DNA of 64,000 nucleotides, taken from contig NZ_HG931175.1 of NCBI RefSeq assembly GCF_000582785.1, forward strand, positions 16,787-80,786. The letters are read 5' to 3'. This stretch comes from Candidatus Blastococcus massiliensis AP3 (GTDB taxonomy: Bacteria > Actinomycetota > Actinomycetes > Mycobacteriales > Geodermatophilaceae). The notes beneath the pieces were generated by a model. That model saw only the letters and a list, made by a program, of their open reading frames with translations. It was not told where the DNA came from and ran no database searches. Of the stretch, positions 9,706 through 44,453 are shown piece by piece (position 1 is the stretch's first letter; each line of letters starts with the position of its first letter). Position numbers and translations under genes: made by a program.

Positions 9706-10689
9706 GTGCCGCCCCGGACCGCCGGGCCCGACAGCACCACCGGGAGCATCGCCCGGGCGGTCACCGGGTACCTGGACCACCTCACCGTCGAACGCGGTCT
9801 CGCGGCCAACACCATCGCCTCCTACCGCCGCGACCTCCGCCGCTACACCCAGTACCTGGCGGCCACCGGGGTCCGAGGCCTGGCCGAGATCTCCGAGTCC
9901 GACGTCGCCGGCTTCCTCGCGGCGCTGCGCCGGGGGGACGACGACCACCCGCCCCTGTCGGAGACGTCGGCCGCGCGGGCCGTCGTCGCGGTGCGCGGTC
10001 TGCACCGCTTCGCGCTGCTCGACGGGCTGGTCCCCGACGACGTCGCGCACGAGGTCCGCCCACCCACCCCCGCGCGACGGCTGCCCAAGGCGGTGCCGGT
10101 GGAGTCCGTGGTCGCCCTCATCGAGGCGGCCGGCTCGGGGGTGGAGGGCCCGCGGGGGCTGCGCGACCGCGCGCTGCTGGAACTGCTGTACGGCACGGGC
10201 GCCCGCATCTCGGAGGCCGTGGGACTGGCCGTCGACGACGTCGACCGCGGGCAGGCCACGGTGCGGCTGGCCGGCAAGGGCGGCAAGGAACGCATCGTCC
10301 CGGTGGGCAGCTACGCGCTGCGGGCGGTCGAGGAGTACCTGGTGCGGGCCCGGCCCGCGCTGGCCGGCAAGAGCAAGGCCGGAGTGCGCGGGGGAGCGCT
10401 GTTCCTCAACGTGCGCGGCGGCCCGCTGTCCCGGCAGAGCGCCTGGCAGATCCTCCGGACAGCAGCGGAGCGTGCGGGCGGCACGGGCGGCGACCTGGCC
10501 CGGTCGGTGTCCCCGCACACCCTGCGGCACTCGTTCGCCACGCACCTGCTCGATGGCGGCGCCGACGTGCGCGTCGTCCAGGAACTGCTGGGTCACGCGT
10601 CGGTGACCACGACGCAGGTCTACACGTTGGTCACGGTGGATCGACTGCGCGAGGTCTACGCCACCAGCCATCCGCGCGCGCTGAGCTGA
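9706..10689 (+). CDS. xerD: Site-specific tyrosine recombinase XerD
   Basis: Tyrosine recombinase that acts with XerC on the dif site to resolve chromosome dimers at division. The 327-residue protein has an N-terminal SAM-like core-binding domain ([20 protein letters not shown]) and a catalytic domain with all signature residues: Arg in [10 protein letters not shown], Lys in [17 protein letters not shown] (H..R), the His in [10 protein letters not shown], and the nucleophile Tyr in QVYTLV. GTG 9706 is the first usual start after the ald stop (9694); a CTG at 9691 would also fit. A probable dif target lies in the same window about 31.5 kb downstream. It precedes the segregation genes parA-scpA-scpB, as in mycobacteria. 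Confidence 0.92.
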
Positions 10690-10901
10690 CAGCCCCTCAG
10701 GGCGACTGTTGGCAGATTATGGCCTCGGCTCGGCTGTAGCAGTCACATGCGTTGTCAGTCGTCGCCATGTCGACAAGTGTCCGGCGCGTCCGCTTGGGCG
10801 AGTGCGCCACTCTTCGTAGCGTTCTCATCACCCGAGCGGGCAGGACGGCTGACCGCATCCGGAACCACCGGGATCGGGCACGAGCTGGAGGCGACAGACC
10901 C

Positions 10902-11807
10902 ATGGCGATCCGAGCGGACGCGGCCTCTGCCGTCGCGCGCCCGCACGACACCGACCCCGAGATGGGTGCCGCCGCCTCGCGGCTGGACCCCGCGCGTGCC
11001 CGGCAGCGCCCGCTGCCGGACCCCAAGCCGCTGACCCAGCACGGGCCGGCGCACGTCATCGCGATGTGCAACCAGAAGGGCGGCGTCGGCAAGACGACGT
11101 CGACGATCAACCTGGGTGCCGCGCTGACCGAGTTCGGCCGCAAGGTGCTGCTCATCGACCTCGACCCGCAGGGTGCCCTGTCGGTCGGGCTCGGGATCCC
11201 GGCCCAGAACATGGACCGGACGATCTACAACGCCCTGATGGAGCGGAAGACGACGCTGCGGGACGTGCGGGTCCACACCGACATCCCCGGCCTGGACCTG
11301 GTGCCCAGCAACATCGACCTGTCGGCCGCCGAGGTGCAGCTGGTCAGCGAGGTCGCCCGCGAGCAGACCCTGCTGCGCGTGCTCGCCGACGTCCGCGACG
11401 AGTACGACTACATCCTCATCGACTGCCAGCCCTCGCTCGGTCTGCTGACGGTCAACGCCCTCACCGCCGCCCAGGGCGTGATGATCCCGCTGGAGTGCGA
11501 GTTCTTCTCGCTGCGCGGGGTGGCCCTGCTCGTCGACACCATCGACAAGGTCAAGGAGCGGCTCAACCCGCAGCTGGAGATCTCCGGCATCCTCGCCACG
11601 ATGTACGACGCCCGGACCGTGCACTGCAAGGAGGTGTTCAGCCGGGTGGTCGAGGCCTTCGGCGACACCGTCTTCCAGACCGTCATCCAGCGCACCGTCC
11701 GCTTCCCGGAGACCACGGTGGCCGGCCAGCCCATCACCACCTGGGCACCCACCTCGTCGGGCGCCGCGGCCTACCGCGACCTCGCCAAGGAGGTGATCGC
11801 GCTGTGA
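10902..11807 (+). CDS. parA: ParA/Soj-family chromosome partitioning ATPase
   Basis: A 301-residue deviant Walker-type ATPase. Residues 1-50 are a disordered Pro/Arg-rich tail. CNQKGGVGKTTSTINLG near residue 56 is the signature Walker A, DLDPQGALSVGLG is the A' motif, and LIDCQPSLGLLTVNAL is Walker B. ATP-bound ParA dimers coat DNA and drive cargo movement. ATG 10902 has a GGAGG site 9-10 nt upstream. The stop overlaps the next gene's GTG by 4 bp. This is the copy linked to scpAB (Rv1708-like), not the parAB pair near oriC, and no parB is adjacent; the small DNA-binding-like protein that follows may be its partner (inference). Confidence 0.9.
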   Translation: MAIRADAASAVARPHDTDPEMGAAASRLDPARARQRPLPDPKPLTQHGPAHVIAMCNQKGGVGKTTSTINLGAALTEFGRKVLLIDLDPQGALSVGLGIPAQNMDRTIYNALMERKTTLRDVRVHTDIPGLDLVPSNIDLSAAEVQLVSEVAREQTLLRVLADVRDEYDYILIDCQPSLGLLTVNALTAAQGVMIPLECEFFSLRGVALLVDTIDKVKERLNPQLEISGILATMYDARTVHCKEVFSRVVEAFGDTVFQTVIQRTVRFPETTVAGQPITTWAPTSSGAAAYRDLAKEVIAL

Positions 11808-12404: not shown

Positions 12405-13283
12405 GTGACGGAGGTGCAGGCGAGCGCGCGCTTCACGGTCCGCCTGACCAACTTCGAGGGCCCGTTCGACCTGCTGCTGCAGCTCATCGGCAAGCACAAG
12501 CTCGATGTCACCGAGATCGCGCTGTCGCAGGTCACCGACGAGTTCATCGCGCACCTGCGGGCACTGGGTGGCGAGCTCGACCTCGACCAGGCCAGCGAGT
12601 TCCTCGTGGTGGCCTCCACGCTGCTCGACCTGAAGGCCGCGCGGCTGCTGCCGGCCGCCGACGTCGACGACGAGGACGACCTCGAGCTGCTCGAGGCCCG
12701 GGACCTGCTCTTCGCCCGCTTGCTGCAGTACAAGGCCTACAAGCAGGCCGCCGCCTTCCTGCGCGAGCGGGAGGGCGAGGCGGCCCGGCGCTTCCCGCGG
12801 GTCGTCGGGCCGGAGCCGCGGTTCGCCGACCTGGTCCCGGAGGTGGTGCTCGACCTCGGGCCGGAGGAGTTCGCCCGGCTGGCCGCGCGCGTGCTGGCAC
12901 CGAAGGCCCCCGAGGTGGTCAGCGTCTCGCACCTCCACGCGCCGCCGGTGAGCGTCAGCGAGCAGTTGATGGCCGTGCGCAACCACCTCGCCCGGGCGGG
13001 CACCGTCTCGTTCCGGGCGCTGACCGCCGACTGCTCGCACACCCTCGAGGTGGTGGCCCGGTTCCTGGCACTGCTGGAGCTGTACCGGCAGCAGCGGGTG
13101 ACCTTCGAGCAGCTGACCCCGCTGGGGGAGCTGCACGTGCGCTGGGCCGGGGGAGCCCTGCCCGGGCCGGTGGACGTGGACGGCGCGCTGCCGGGCGACG
13201 CGACCGGCGACGCGACCGGGGACGCCCCACCGGGGAACGACGACGGCGAGCCGGACCACGACATCGACGAGGAGTACCGGTGA
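12405..13283 (+). CDS. scpA: Segregation and condensation protein A
   Basis: Kleisin subunit that bridges the heads of the SMC ATPase; with ScpB it forms the bacterial condensin that organises and separates sister chromosomes. The 292-residue protein opens with FTVRLTNFEGPFDLLLQLIGKHKLDVTEIALS, the signature ScpA N-terminus that contacts the SMC neck. A central acidic linker follows (residues about 85-110), and a C-terminal winged-helix region (residues about 175-240) contacts the SMC cap. The Asp/Gly-rich tail (residues 260-292) contains a short GDATGDATGDA repeat. GTG 12405 overlaps nothing upstream; the stop overlaps scpB by 4 bp. Confidence 0.93.
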   Translation: MTEVQASARFTVRLTNFEGPFDLLLQLIGKHKLDVTEIALSQVTDEFIAHLRALGGELDLDQASEFLVVASTLLDLKAARLLPAADVDDEDDLELLEARDLLFARLLQYKAYKQAAAFLREREGEAARRFPRVVGPEPRFADLVPEVVLDLGPEEFARLAARVLAPKAPEVVSVSHLHAPPVSVSEQLMAVRNHLARAGTVSFRALTADCSHTLEVVARFLALLELYRQQRVTFEQLTPLGELHVRWAGGALPGPVDVDGALPGDATGDATGDAPPGNDDGEPDHDIDEEYR

Positions 13284-14116
13284 CCAGCGACCAGGACCGG
13301 CCGACCGACGAGCGGGCGCCCATCTCCTGGGACGCCCTCGCCGCCGAGCTCGAGGCCACGCGGCAGGAGGCCGAGAGCCGGGGGGACGCCGACCCCGTCG
13401 CGTGGGACGCCGTCGCCGCGGAGCTGGCCGCCCGGGTCTCCGAACGCCCGGCGGAGGAGATCGCGGTCCTGGCGGTGCCGGTCGAGGACGACGTCGCGGC
13501 CGCGCCGCCGTCGGTCTCCGAGCCCGAGGGCGAGCCCGAACCGGTCTTGGAGCCGCTGGAGCCGCTCGACCCGGTGGAGCTGCGCGGCGGCCTGGAGGCG
13601 CTGCTGTTCGTGATGGACGACCCGGTCGACGAGGACACCCTCGCCGGGGCGCTGCGCTGTGACGTCGACCAGGTGCGCACCGGCCTGGCGGAGCTGGCCG
13701 AGGGCTACGACACCCGTTCGGCCGGGATCACGCTGCGCCGGGTGGGGGAGGGGTGGCGCCTCTACACCCGCGAGGAGCACGCCGCCGTCGTCGAGCGGTT
13801 CCTGGTCGACGGCCAGCGCAGCCGGCTCAGCCAGGCAGCGCTGGAGACCCTCGCGGTCATCGCCTACCGGCAGCCAGTCACCCGGGCGCGCGTGGCCGCG
13901 ATCCGCGGGGTCGGCGTCGACGGCGTCATGCGCACGCTGCTCAGCCGCGGGCTCGTGCACGAGGTCGGCAGCGACCCCGACAGCGGGGGAGGGCTCTACG
14001 GGACCACGCCGCTGTTCCTGGAGCGGCTCGGGCTCACCGGCCTGGCCGACCTGCCGGAGCTCGCGCCGCTGCTCCCGGAAACCGCCACGATGCTCGAGGA
14101 GCACCCGGACAGCTGA
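13280..14116 (+). CDS. scpB: Segregation and condensation protein B
   Basis: Partner of ScpA in the SMC-ScpAB complex. The 278-residue protein carries an actinobacterial acidic, Pro/Glu-rich N-terminal extension (about residues 1-95) before the two winged-helix domains: LRGGLEALLFVMDDPVDEDTLA near residue 100 and LSQAALETLAVIAYRQPVTRARVAAIRGV near residue 185, the latter the most conserved ScpB motif. It ends with the typical YGTTPLFLERLGLTGLADLPEL segment. The GTGA overlap with scpA indicates coupled translation and 1:2 complex assembly. The extension resembles a repeat of SWDALAAELEA and AWDAVAAELAA (residues 14-53), whose role is unknown. Confidence 0.93.
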   Translation: MTSDQDRPTDERAPISWDALAAELEATRQEAESRGDADPVAWDAVAAELAARVSERPAEEIAVLAVPVEDDVAAAPPSVSEPEGEPEPVLEPLEPLDPVELRGGLEALLFVMDDPVDEDTLAGALRCDVDQVRTGLAELAEGYDTRSAGITLRRVGEGWRLYTREEHAAVVERFLVDGQRSRLSQAALETLAVIAYRQPVTRARVAAIRGVGVDGVMRTLLSRGLVHEVGSDPDSGGGLYGTTPLFLERLGLTGLADLPELAPLLPETATMLEEHPDS

Positions 14117-41827: not shown

Positions 41828-41875
41828 CGTCGTCCTACCGCGCTATCCGGTGGCGCACCCGGACGGCGGACGATC

Positions 41876-41888
41876 CGTCACAGTGACG
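41876..41888. repeat. CGTCAC-A-GTGACG palindrome, copy 1
   Basis: A 6-bp inverted repeat around a central A, 329 bp left of dif. Read on the minus strand it is followed by GATCGTCCGCCGT, close to the tail of copy 2. Confidence 0.6.
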
Positions 41889-41966
41889 TATTGAGCCGGG
41901 TTTGGCTGGGTGGACCGCCGTCCATCGGGGACGCGCATCAGCGCGATGCGGCAAACGGCGGGGGAT

Positions 41967-41981
41967 GCGTCACAGTGACGC
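41967..41981. repeat. GCGTCAC-A-GTGACGC palindrome, copy 2
   Basis: A perfect 7-bp inverted repeat around a central A, 91 bp from copy 1 and 236 bp left of dif. On the minus strand it reads TTGCGTCACTGTGACGCATC and runs on into CCCCGCCGT. Confidence 0.65.
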
Positions 41982-42216
41982 AATAGGGCCAGCCGGCCCC
42001 GGCCGGCGAGAGGGGCCCGGTGGCGGCCCGGCCGGACGGCCGACGGTTCGCCGCGGGGTCGGCCGACCGGGGCGAGGTGGCGGTGCGACGACGACACGGC
42101 GGTGCCGGCTCGACGGGCTTCGGGAGACGTCGTCGACGTCGCGGTGAGGGTCGGTCGCGGGCGATGTCGTCGGCGGGGAGGGCTCCGGGCCGTCAGGAGC
42201 GGGGCACCCCTCGGCT

Positions 42217-42244
42217 ACTTGACATAATGTGCATTATCGGCGCA
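42217..42244 (-). other. dif: dif site (XerCD chromosome-dimer resolution site)
   Basis: On the minus strand the site reads XerC-type arm TGCGCCGATAA, central 6 bp TGCACA, XerD-type arm TTATGTCAAGT. This is the 11-6-11 layout of bacterial dif, and the right arm differs from the E. coli XerD arm (TTATGTTAAAT) by two bases. The inner ATAATG-TG-CATTAT is a perfect inverted repeat and the most AT-rich spot in the area. xerD is in the same window. Gene orientation switches from mainly plus to mainly minus here, as expected at the replication terminus. Confidence 0.88.
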
Positions 42245-42274: not shown

Positions 42275-43150
42275 TCAGCTCACGTCCCCGCTCGCCGGGT
42301 GCAACGCCCGCAGCAGGTGGTGCCCGAAGCGCTCGAAGTCCTCGGCGCCGACCTCGTAGGCCCAGACGGCCGTGCCGACGGCTTCCCCGACGAGACTCCG
42401 GCGCCACTCCTCGGGGTCCCGAGGGTCCCCGCCGTACCCGTCGAAGAACGCCGCCTCCAGTCGTGGGTCGCGCGCGAAGTCCTGCCGCGCCAGCCGCACG
42501 AAGTCCTCGGTCGGCGGCCGCAGGTCGGCCCGCCCGAGGTCGATCACCCGGACGACCCCGTCGTCGATGAGCCAGTTGCGAGGCTGCCAGTCGCCGTGCG
42601 TGGGGACGACGGTCGCGCCCCCGCCCGGCCAGGTCGAGACCTCCGCGCGCAGCACCCGTTCGATCTGCGGGTCGATCCGGTGCGGCTCGTCGAGACGGCG
42701 CTGGACCCGTGCCCGCAGCTTGTCGTGCCATCCGGGGTCGTGTGCCTGCGTCTGGCCGTGGAACCGGGCCAGCAGCGCCCCCGCCAGGCGGTAGACCTCC
42801 GGGTCGTCCTGGGCCGGCGTCCCCTCCAGGAGCCGGCCGGGCAGGTACCGGGTGACCAGCACCTTGGCCGGTCCGTCCGCGTGGAGCAGTGCCGGGGCAT
42901 GGCCGGTCGACACCCAGGGGGCCAGCCACTCCCTGTGCGCCCGCAGTTCGCGCGCGATGTGACTGTCCGCCGGTCCCCCGGCCTTGACGATCAGCCGCCC
43001 CTGTTCGCTCTCCACCTCGAGGACGACCGTCTCGACCAGGCCCCAGCTGTGGTCGGCGATGACCCGTGCGTCAGGGATCCACCCCGCCACCAGGTGACGC
43101 TGCTCGGGTCGCAGCCGGTCCAGTCCCGAGCGGTTCACCGGCTCAGCCAC
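42275..43150 (-). CDS. Aminoglycoside phosphotransferase (APH)-like kinase
   Basis: A 291-residue protein with an APH/choline-kinase fold. VIVKAGG-like LIVKAGGPAD (near residue 58) is the ATP-binding strand, the catalytic loop is VVPTHGDWQPRNWLID (HxDxxxxN, near residue 195), and VIDLGRADLRPPTEDF carries the metal-binding Asp (DLG in place of DFG). Family members phosphorylate small molecules; resistance should not be assumed. GTG 43,150 overlaps the preceding small gene's end by 16 bp, so the two are co-translated. Its stop is 30 bp from dif. Confidence 0.82.
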   Translation of the reverse strand: MAEPVNRSGLDRLRPEQRHLVAGWIPDARVIADHSWGLVETVVLEVESEQGRLIVKAGGPADSHIARELRAHREWLAPWVSTGHAPALLHADGPAKVLVTRYLPGRLLEGTPAQDDPEVYRLAGALLARFHGQTQAHDPGWHDKLRARVQRRLDEPHRIDPQIERVLRAEVSTWPGGGATVVPTHGDWQPRNWLIDDGVVRVIDLGRADLRPPTEDFVRLARQDFARDPRLEAAFFDGYGGDPRDPEEWRRSLVGEAVGTAVWAYEVGAEDFERFGHHLLRALHPASGDVS

Positions 43151-43509
43151 CGGGCCGCCGCGTCGAAGGTGCCGTCGGGTGTGCTGTTGAAGGCGATCGC
43201 CGCCGTGGGCGCCGCGCGGTGCACGAGGTTGAGGACCCGCTCGAACAGGTCCAGGTCGTTGCGGACCCCGCCGCCGATGACGACGACCTCCCAGGGCCGG
43301 CTCGTGACCGCCCGGGTCACCACGTCCTCGATGTCGTCGCTGCCGTCCAGCCCGACCAGGCAGCTCTCCGCGCCGACCCCGGCGTCGGCGAACCGGGCCA
43401 TGCCTGCGGCGATGCCCTCGGCGACGGGTGCGGGGTCCCACGGCCCGGGCACCCGGTACGGGTCGAGACCGATCACCAGCACGCGGGGCCCGTCGACGAC
43501 GTCGTGCAC
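43135..43509 (-). CDS. Conserved small Rossmann-like protein paired with the APH-like kinase
   Basis: A 124-residue protein starting GTG 43,509. It alternates strands and helices: VLVIGLDPYRVPGPWDP near residue 10, a middle with SCLVGLDGSDDIEDVV, then WEVVVIGGGVRND near residue 75 and AIAFNSTPDGTFDAAARWL at the end. This is a small three-layer fold that may bind a nucleotide or sugar phosphate (inference from the GGG loop). I do not recognise a named family. The 16-bp overlap with the kinase gene suggests a shared pathway. Confidence 0.72.
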   Translation of the reverse strand: MHDVVDGPRVLVIGLDPYRVPGPWDPAPVAEGIAAGMARFADAGVGAESCLVGLDGSDDIEDVVTRAVTSRPWEVVVIGGGVRNDLDLFERVLNLVHRAAPTAAIAFNSTPDGTFDAAARWLSR

Positions 43510-43604
43510 CGGGCGACCGTAGCGCCCGGGACGGTCCCGAGTCCCACGACGACTCCCCTCGTCCCCGGATTCCCCTCCTGCCCCATCCGGGCACACCGGC
43601 GGCA

Positions 43605-43623
43605 TTACGTAACAGTGACGCAA
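43605..43623. repeat. TTGCGTCACTGTTACGTAA-type palindrome, copy 3
   Basis: An imperfect 9-bp inverted repeat around a central A (7 of 9 pairs). It has the same orientation and a similar GCCGCCG flank as the two copies left of dif. It lies 96 bp upstream of the minus-strand gene start at 43,509 and 61 bp before the lipoprotein gene. Confidence 0.55.
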
Positions 43624-43683: not shown

Positions 43684-43917
43684 ATGGAGATCCGACGCCC
43701 GCTCGCCGCGTTGTTCGCCGCTCTGACCCTGTTCGGCGGAGGCGCCACGCTGACCGCCTGTGGCGACCCGACGACGCCGAACGAGGGGACGACGGACGAC
43801 GACAGCGAGAACACCGGCGGCAGCGAACGCGGCGAGGACGAGCGCGGCAACCTGCCGGACAACACCGACCCGGAGAACGAGGACGACGGGGACGAGGACA
43901 CCACCGATCCGGACTGA
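43684..43917 (+). CDS. Small acidic lipoprotein
   Basis: A 77-residue protein. Residues 1-26 are a lipoprotein signal peptide with lipobox LTAC, so Cys26 would be acylated. The mature 52 residues are almost only Asp, Glu, Asn, Thr, Gly and Pro (for example DDDSENTGG and ENEDDGDEDTTD) and must be disordered and strongly negative. It could bind cations at the cell surface or simply act as a spacer; no function is known. It has its own -10 hexamer and no coupled neighbours. Confidence 0.72.
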   Translation: MEIRRPLAALFAALTLFGGGATLTACGDPTTPNEGTTDDDSENTGGSERGEDERGNLPDNTDPENEDDGDEDTTDPD

Positions 43918-43945: not shown

Positions 43946-44347
43946 TCAGCCGCGTTCGGTGACCCACAGGCGGTCCAGGCGACCGGTCGAGTGGACCAGG
44001 TCGGCCAGTGACCGCTCGAGCTCTGCCTTCGTCGGCTTCTCGGTGAGCAGCGTCTGGACGTCCTCGAGGGCGCAGCGCAGCTGGTAGAGCCGGTCCTGCA
44101 GGCCGTCGAGCTCGGCACGCGAGACCAGGACGACGTCGTCGGGCAGGCCGGCCTTCGCGGTGGCGGAGCGCTGCTCGTAGGCGCGTTGCCGGCAGGCCTG
44201 GCCGCAGTAGAGCCGCGGCCGCCCCACGCTGCCCTGCTCGGGCAGCACCCGGCGGCACCAGCCGCAGCGACGCTCCTCGCCGCTCCCCCGGTTGGGTGCG
44301 GGGGAGAGCCGGGTCTGCGTCACCGTGCCGGTCGCGTGCTGTGCCAC
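43946..44347 (-). CDS. Zinc-finger-like protein with helical C-terminus
   Basis: A 133-residue protein. Residues 26-55 hold a four-Cys cluster: CGWC, then YCGQAC after a basic loop (RRVLPEQGSVGRPRL), typical of small zinc ribbons that bind nucleic acid. The C-terminal half is helical (LDGLQDRLYQLRCALEDVQT) and may dimerise. GTG 44,347 was chosen because a TAGCGT -10 lies 7 nt upstream; GTG 44,323 is a possible shorter start. Family recurrent in related actinobacteria, no known role. Confidence 0.7.
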   Translation of the reverse strand: MAQHATGTVTQTRLSPAPNRGSGEERRCGWCRRVLPEQGSVGRPRLYCGQACRQRAYEQRSATAKAGLPDDVVLVSRAELDGLQDRLYQLRCALEDVQTLLTEKPTKAELERSLADLVHSTGRLDRLWVTERG

Positions 44348-44354
44348 GTCCGGC

Positions 44355-44360
44355 ACGCTA
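44355..44360 (-). promoter_or_regulatory. Putative -10 hexamer for leaderless zinc-finger-like gene
   Basis: TAGCGT on the minus strand ends 7 nt before GTG 44,347. Confidence 0.4.
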
Positions 44361-44453
44361 GACGCCGACGGCGACAGGACCGACGGAACACGCCCGGAAC
44401 ACCTCTCGATCGACACCGGCCGACCCGACCCGACGGCCGTCCGGGCGCCTGAC

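Follow-up and report, generated by a model that had tools for sequence, protein, structure and literature searches.

A conserved palindrome accompanies the dif site in Blastococcus, its relatives and Mycobacterium

The window considered here, a stretch of 64,000 nucleotides corresponding to positions 16787-80786 of contig C3 in the four-contig draft of Candidatus Blastococcus massiliensis AP3, carries in its left part the gene of a XerC/XerD-type tyrosine recombinase (9730-10686, + strand), followed by those of a ParA-type ATPase (10752-11804, +; AAA_31, 4.5e-62), of ScpA (12405-13283, +; PF02616, 191.9 bits at C3:29269-29931, with further ScpA models matched, all under their cut-offs) and of ScpB (13280-14116, +; TIGR00281, 101.6 bits, cut-off 89.2). 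The recombinase, the one XerC/D-type recombinase identified in the window, scores 362.6 bits with NF001399 (cut-off 279), 326.6 with the XerD model TIGR02225 (just below its cut-off of 329.6) and 281.2 with the XerC model TIGR02224 (cut-off 335.15). All of these genes, which a sequence-only reading of the same DNA had pointed out as xerD, parA and scpAB, lie 28-33 kb to the left of a 28-bp dif site, ACTTGACATAATGTGCATTATCGGCGCA (42217-42244, +), on the right of which are found a frame with a phosphotransferase-like part, a short palindrome and a small lipoprotein gene. Among the 23 congeners scpA shares a contig with dif in 17, and in all 17 it points at dif from a distance of 27-134 kb, while in the other six the two are on different contigs; the closeness of scpAB to dif is syntenic context, not proof of a terminus.

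The 28-bp site has an 11-6-11 layout, composed of an XerD-type arm (ACTTGACATAA, complement TTATGTCAAGT; 42217-42227), a central hexamer (42228-42233) and an XerC-type arm (TTATCGGCGCA, complement TGCGCCGATAA; 42234-42244), exactly as the earlier reading had it, the centre being read as TGTGCA; the inner palindrome ATAATG/CATTAT, which it had also described, was found in the core. The proposed search for other matches to the 28-mer returned none with up to three mismatches in the 3.87-Mb assembly, and 100 shuffles of the window gave no dif match. The length of the site and both of its arms agree with the phylum-consensus core; in the accessible text of the published account, the predicted dif of Frankia alni is identical to the window site at 26 of 28 positions, with the letters aligned by eye, and the two differences are in outer XerC-arm positions of the window site's complement (PMC3025954). 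With this type of actinobacterial dif the window site shares the 28 bp, the 11-6-11 layout, the single copy and, in closed congeners, the location opposite dnaA; it differs in the conserved palindrome alongside and in the presence of two types of central hexamer within one genus. The sequence at 42217-42244 is almost certainly the chromosomal dif site and, taken alone as dif, it is an ordinary, textbook actinobacterial one. Following the established pathway, XerC and XerD would bind its arms and, as we infer for the window site, dimeric sister chromosomes pulled through the septum by FtsK would be converted into monomers by Xer recombination of the two dif copies.

The claim that the site marks the replication terminus is borne out by the relatives; indeed, in three closed congeners whose sequences begin at dnaA (located at 0.7-1.0 kb), dif lies at 0.464, 0.517 and 0.495 of the chromosome (1,994,455/4,297,415, 2,522,670/4,875,340 and 1,833,693/3,701,696 bp, respectively). 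In the draft assembly dnaA is at C2:1,056,669 and dif at C3:59,003, so that the position of dif is here simply consistent with the terminus; an assumed contig order C2-C1-C3 gives replication arms of 1.886 and 1.983 Mb. GC skew, one of the checks proposed earlier, is almost flat in this genome and speaks neither for nor against a terminus here: it ranges between -0.035 and +0.028 over 42 sampled stretches and both window halves (about 23% of the genome), with no clear sign change at dif; in the sampled stretches, the occurrences of a KOPS proxy (GGGNAGGG/GTGGNGG-type strand bias) are too few and show no clear flip; no parS was found on the contig of dif, the only two places with one mismatch being both on C2, within 130 kb of dnaA. 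The switch in gene orientation at dif holds in its direction, not in its counts: a simple codon-bias gene caller gives 24 plus to 6 minus genes on the left and 6 plus to 10 minus on the right, instead of the 33:10 and 7:14 that had been claimed, the coding sequence amounting to 27.3 kb plus and 5.8 kb minus on the left and to 4.6 and 13.5 kb on the right.

At up to three mismatches the full 28-mer is matched in 72 of the 112 genomes of the family, at one place each with the exception of a single genome (G033; in our numbering G denotes genomes, C contigs, L loci, f families and g genera), in which a second match lies at the extreme end of a contig. Only 8 of the 23 genomes of the genus match the full 28-mer, because the other 15 have a different central region; with the centre masked, all 23 have exactly one site. 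The single copy that is taken as a mark of a chromosomal dif is found, therefore, in the assembly itself and in all 23 congeners, while the wider searches returned extra matches in some genomes. Two dif centres coexist in the genus, a TGTG-type (8/23) and a CGTC/CGTT-type (15/23), with both arms nearly constant. At the class level 327 of 394 genomes are matched, again with extra matches in some of them; the largest block of misses is family f18, which genome size and the lack of a site suggest to be Streptomyces with linear chromosomes, and none of whose 46 genomes (5.8-11 Mb) gives a match at up to three mismatches. Of the 78 genomes of Mycobacterium sensu lato (genus g13), 75 have dif.

The element accompanying dif, which the earlier reading had missed, is a palindrome with the core GTCAC-N-GTGAC, symmetric over 19-21 bp, which was searched with the consensus WTNCGTMACNGTGACGNAW. 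In the window a copy, TTACGTAACAGTGACGCAA (43605-43623), is on the XerC-arm side of dif, its centre (43614) being 70 nt upstream of the lipoprotein start; two extra copies are on the XerD-arm side, ATCCGTCACAGTGACGTAT (41873-41891), between an ABC-type permease frame and dif, and ATGCGTCACAGTGACGCAA (41965-41983). The exact sequence CGTCACAGTGACG occurs at two places in the whole assembly, 41876-41888 and 41968-41980, 250-350 bp to the left of dif. Throughout the genus, where genomes have 1-4 copies at up to one mismatch, 32 of the 37 copies found genome-wide are within 1.5 kb of dif and each of the 23 genomes has a near copy; of these 32 near copies 23 are found beyond the XerC arm and 9 beyond the XerD arm, so that the preference for the XerC side is not absolute in the genus. 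Measured from dif, the centre of the XerC-side copy is at 358-502 bp in the remaining 22 congeners and at 1384 bp in the window, since here roughly 1 kb containing an APH-like frame separates dif from the palindrome; a similar palindrome is found on the XerC-arm side in most relatives' stretches, at about +356 to +526. The intervening frame (42275-43594, -) has a C-terminal phosphotransferase-like part, with the motif HGDWQPRNW...IDLGRAD recognized by eye; its score with NF033068, 27.9 bits against a cut-off of 205, indicates a distant resemblance only, and no Pfam match was obtained at E 0.001.

Adjoining the companion palindrome is the gene of a small acidic lipoprotein (43684-43917, +; 77 aa, lipobox LTAC) without a match in Pfam or NCBIfam. 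A TAGGGT box ends 6 nt before its ATG (4-7 nt in relatives), a spacing in the DNA which suggests a leaderless transcript. A search with one such protein against 84,980 species genomes, which detects close relatives only, returned 41 loci from other genomes, all of Geodermatophilaceae (mostly Blastococcus and Geodermatophilus, also Modestobacter and Trujillonella); in all 41 of them dif precedes the gene by 360-1045 bp and has the same orientation, and the palindrome is centred 68-71 nt before the ATG in 38, the three exceptions, with no copy in the range -66 to -72, being L185 (at -84; its match begins at residue 6), L186 and L198. In the dif stretches of the family the lipoprotein is 74-83 aa long and the XerC-side copy is centred 69-71 nt ahead of its ATG; the pattern by which it was recognized missed 6 of 73 stretches (L057, L059, L060, L080, L095 and L102), some of which are incomplete. 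On its other side, the lipoprotein gene is adjoined by that of a small protein (43949-44416, -) in which a zinc-ribbon-like motif, GRPRLYCGQACRQRAYEQR, was recognized by eye and which likewise gave no Pfam or NCBIfam match; it was seen in L112 and L116 too.

In Mycobacterium the palindrome is present in 73 of the 78 genomes; one member of the genus is identified as M. crocinum by its plasmid, NZ_CP092363.2. Examination of 48 dif flanks out of the 75 dif-bearing genomes revealed a copy within 1.5 kb in 45 (those without one at up to one mismatch being L223, L234 and L267), to be compared with 1 in 960 block-shuffled flanks; 61 of 62 near-dif copies are on the XerC side and 40 of 62 at +226 to +343 bp. 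Among the matches listed (75 copies from 27 of the 73 genomes) a near copy is present in all 27 genomes; for 41 copies a dif or dif-like match lies no farther than 1.5 kb away, the copy being on its XerC side in 39 cases, and the remaining ones are divided among 16 at 1.5-60 kb, 8 farther away and 10 on contigs without any such match. In 43 Mycobacterium loci only about 21 bp are conserved at the palindrome, and nothing else within -60/+130, be it a box, a start codon or a single base, exceeds the conservation threshold. As to the copies far from dif, no convincing Xer-like sites were found around those of L252-L256; a palindrome, TACCGTCACAGTGACGTAA, is shared, far from dif, by at least four Mycobacterium genomes (G282:C77:32261, G457:C1:5055703, G566:C1:3838100 and G517:C1:4335356), the copy in G457 being near a contig end, perhaps close to the origin.

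Three other genera of the family of Mycobacterium have a copy at up to one mismatch in four of six loci (L279-L282), L148 having one at two mismatches and L152 none. In other families (f3, f17, f19, f25 and others) no palindrome was found within 1.5 kb of dif at up to two mismatches in any of 31 loci, two of which (L289 and L293) are incomplete on the XerC side, nor was any found in the 30 class-level dif flanks of still further families; Xer recombination in general, therefore, does not need the palindrome. An open-ended motif scan of family f17 revealed the motif AAGATARTCAACnnnGTTGACG, 221-319 bp from dif on its XerD side, in 8 of 10 loci (among L155-L157 and L283-L289), and other actinobacterial families may use other dif companions of this kind; de novo searches for half-site palindromes near dif found one shared by at most 4 of 10 loci in f19, 3 of 15 in f32 and 2 of 7 in f29.

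The association extends to secondary dif-like sites of Mycobacterium, most of which have different central hexamers. Out of 14 such sites (13 from the Mycobacterium dif search, together with G369:C30 among the class-level matches listed), 11 have the palindrome on the XerC side within 1 kb; the three without it are L240, L248 and L259, while L258, of genus g14 and without a copy, is outside this count. The sites are mostly on small contigs, which are putative plasmids, at least one (L260) being on a 5.9-Mb contig. A 191-kb contig (L246) and the plasmids NC_014811.1, NZ_AP022571.1 and NZ_CP126903.1 share sequence from the Xer core (L246:5002) through the palindrome; compared with L246, the loci L299, L300 and L301 are homologous on the XerC side only, with no homology on the XerD side, and in L301 a block of about 385 bp, including core and palindrome and 90-91% identical to the others, is followed by 0.7 kb of divergent sequence and then by homology again. 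Homology starting at the Xer core would be the trace expected of an exchange by Xer recombination, in which the palindrome, judging from these alignments, apparently stayed with the core.

The palindrome also pointed to a diverged dif-like site in L240, with four mismatches and missed by the strict pattern (0.07 such matches per 10 kb in shuffles), and to a weaker one in L251, with five mismatches, which may be due to chance (0.56 per 10 kb); it may thus help to locate Xer sites on mycobacterial plasmids. As for the neighbours of dif, dif-like sites or palindromes in Mycobacterium, toxin-antitoxin genes (MazF-, RelE- and VapC-like by eye; Phd/RelE annotated in L302) are adjacent in L239, L245, L150, L151 and L302, and tyrosine-recombinase-like frames, again by eye, adjoin the secondary dif-like sites of L247 and L250. 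Near the Xer-like site of pJCM12603 lies a hypothetical gene (L300, 578-1228) labelled in PLSDB as a predicted phenicol efflux gene.

Very probably, the association of the palindrome with Xer sites is genuine and maintained by selection. Its near-invariant symmetric letters over 19-21 bp point to a dimeric DNA-binding protein, and most likely it is the binding site of such a putative protein; the joint reading of the window, a dif with a selected companion palindrome and its putative binder, is one that we hold with good confidence. Whether the companion has an accessory role in Xer recombination specifically is a narrower question, and the probability of such a role falls a little short of even. 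Accessory sequences of Xer sites are known from the plasmid systems cer and psi, in which, according to the accessible part of the published account, they adjoin the XerC site and are bound by PepA together with either ArgR or ArcA (PMC11724359). As in those systems, the palindrome is found on the XerC side of an Xer core, plasmids included (61 of 62 copies in Mycobacterium and 23 of 32 near copies in the genus of the window); at variance with them, it is a single symmetric site of 19-21 bp accompanying chromosomal dif as well, and it is 230-770 bp away from the core, instead of belonging to accessory DNA within about 200 bp of it. A strict requirement for the palindrome is argued against by the excision of dif-flanked cassettes at several ectopic places in M. 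smegmatis, as reported in the accessible part of that study (PMC4789726); considering also the larger and variable distance and the dif sites lacking a palindrome elsewhere, a role in recombination, if any, is probably modulating rather than enabling.

A different explanation would see in the palindrome an ordinary operator of neighbouring genes, tied to dif merely by gene order. In the Geodermatophilaceae this is what the fixed spacing to the lipoprotein ATG and the TAGGGT-type box just before it would lead one to expect; nevertheless, the 43 Mycobacterium loci have neither a conserved box nor a start codon around the palindrome, which stays beside secondary and plasmid Xer-like sites whose neighbours differ, and in the window itself the two copies on the XerD side lie in the gap separating the 3' end of the permease frame from dif, and the gene caller placed no start beyond them. 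A function as operator is thus unlikely, and as the sole role of the palindrome that of lipoprotein operator is rejected, given its Mycobacterium and plasmid occurrences; in the selected-companion reading, the palindrome would also have joined the promoter region of the dif-linked lipoprotein gene in Geodermatophilaceae.

The palindrome might also be a terminus mark resembling matS, serving to release SMC-ScpAB or to hold the terminus at mid-cell. The matS sites of enterobacteria, bound by MatP, have the consensus GTGACRNYGTCAC and are dispersed over the terminus macrodomain; like the palindrome discussed here they are palindromic, with GTGAC half-sites, and located at the terminus. The adjacency to dif, the further 16 of the 75 Mycobacterium copies among the matches listed whose distance to a dif or dif-like match is 1.5-60 kb, and the fact that SMC-ScpAB is the condensin of this lineage, with scpA near dif, are in keeping with a mark of this type. 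On the other hand, the half-sites are oriented opposite to those of matS and separated by one central base (GTCAC-N-GTGAC), plasmid sites have the palindrome too, and instead of tens of copies over hundreds of kb there are one to few per genome (0-8 among the matches listed), concentrated at dif; we consider a matS-like mark improbable.

A still weaker case can be made for a hairpin or cruciform acting as such, without being the target of a protein. Over 43 distinct windows from Geodermatophilaceae, pairing does extend beyond the core, with a value of 0.695 at positions 12-19 against 0.499 for swapped arms (sd 0.020), and in some genomes arms as long as 27 bp are near-perfect; in Mycobacterium (44 windows), by contrast, it ends at the core (0.295 against 0.279 at positions 12-19, sd 0.022), the letters of which are nearly invariant. 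As a general explanation the hairpin is rejected, pairing being confined to the core in Mycobacterium, and the probability that the palindrome acts in this way is low. The idea that its halves are copies of the XerD arm (GTGACGTAAT versus TTGACATAAT, 8/10) was dropped, such matches not being rare by a rough estimate. That the 28-mer itself is a chance or relic match, with the working dif elsewhere, can practically be dismissed, as it is single and exact in the assembly, kept in 23/23 congeners and opposite dnaA in the three closed ones.

A third known system to be considered is that of the pdif modules of Acinetobacter plasmids, described in the accessible literature as dif-like plasmid sites, some of them beside toxin-antitoxin genes. 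The mycobacterial sites share with these modules their nature of dif-like plasmid sites, the toxin-antitoxin genes beside some of them and homology between plasmids that stops at the Xer core, the latter found in one related set (L246, L299, L300 and L301); the difference is that here the sites belong to Mycobacterium and mostly have a palindrome on their XerC side. A literature search, for which most subscription papers were beyond reach, found no published description of the companion palindrome; the dif itself is of a known kind, and the palindromic companion is the new part.

Returning to the palindrome as the target of a putative dimeric protein, its usual location, mostly 230-500 bp from the XerC arm, would let such a protein mark or license Xer sites; it could be an XerC-side architectural helper, in the manner of cer and psi, or a terminus-marking protein. 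We tentatively propose, while giving it somewhat less than an even chance, that the Xer sites of Mycobacteriaceae and Geodermatophilaceae, chromosomal and plasmid, constitute a two-part system, in which a 28-bp core is combined with an XerC-side palindrome whose dedicated putative protein would license or channel recombination, or would mark the terminus. The 19-bp palindrome offers a bait for catching this putative protein. In its usual description dif is a 28-bp site for which XerCD and FtsK are sufficient; if the proposal is true, the chromosomal dif of these bacteria, the genus of the tubercle bacillus included, would not be self-contained. A dif companion retained across two families, mostly on one side of the site and on chromosomes and plasmids alike, suggests that some participant in dimer resolution or in the handling of the terminus has so far been overlooked in actinobacteria.
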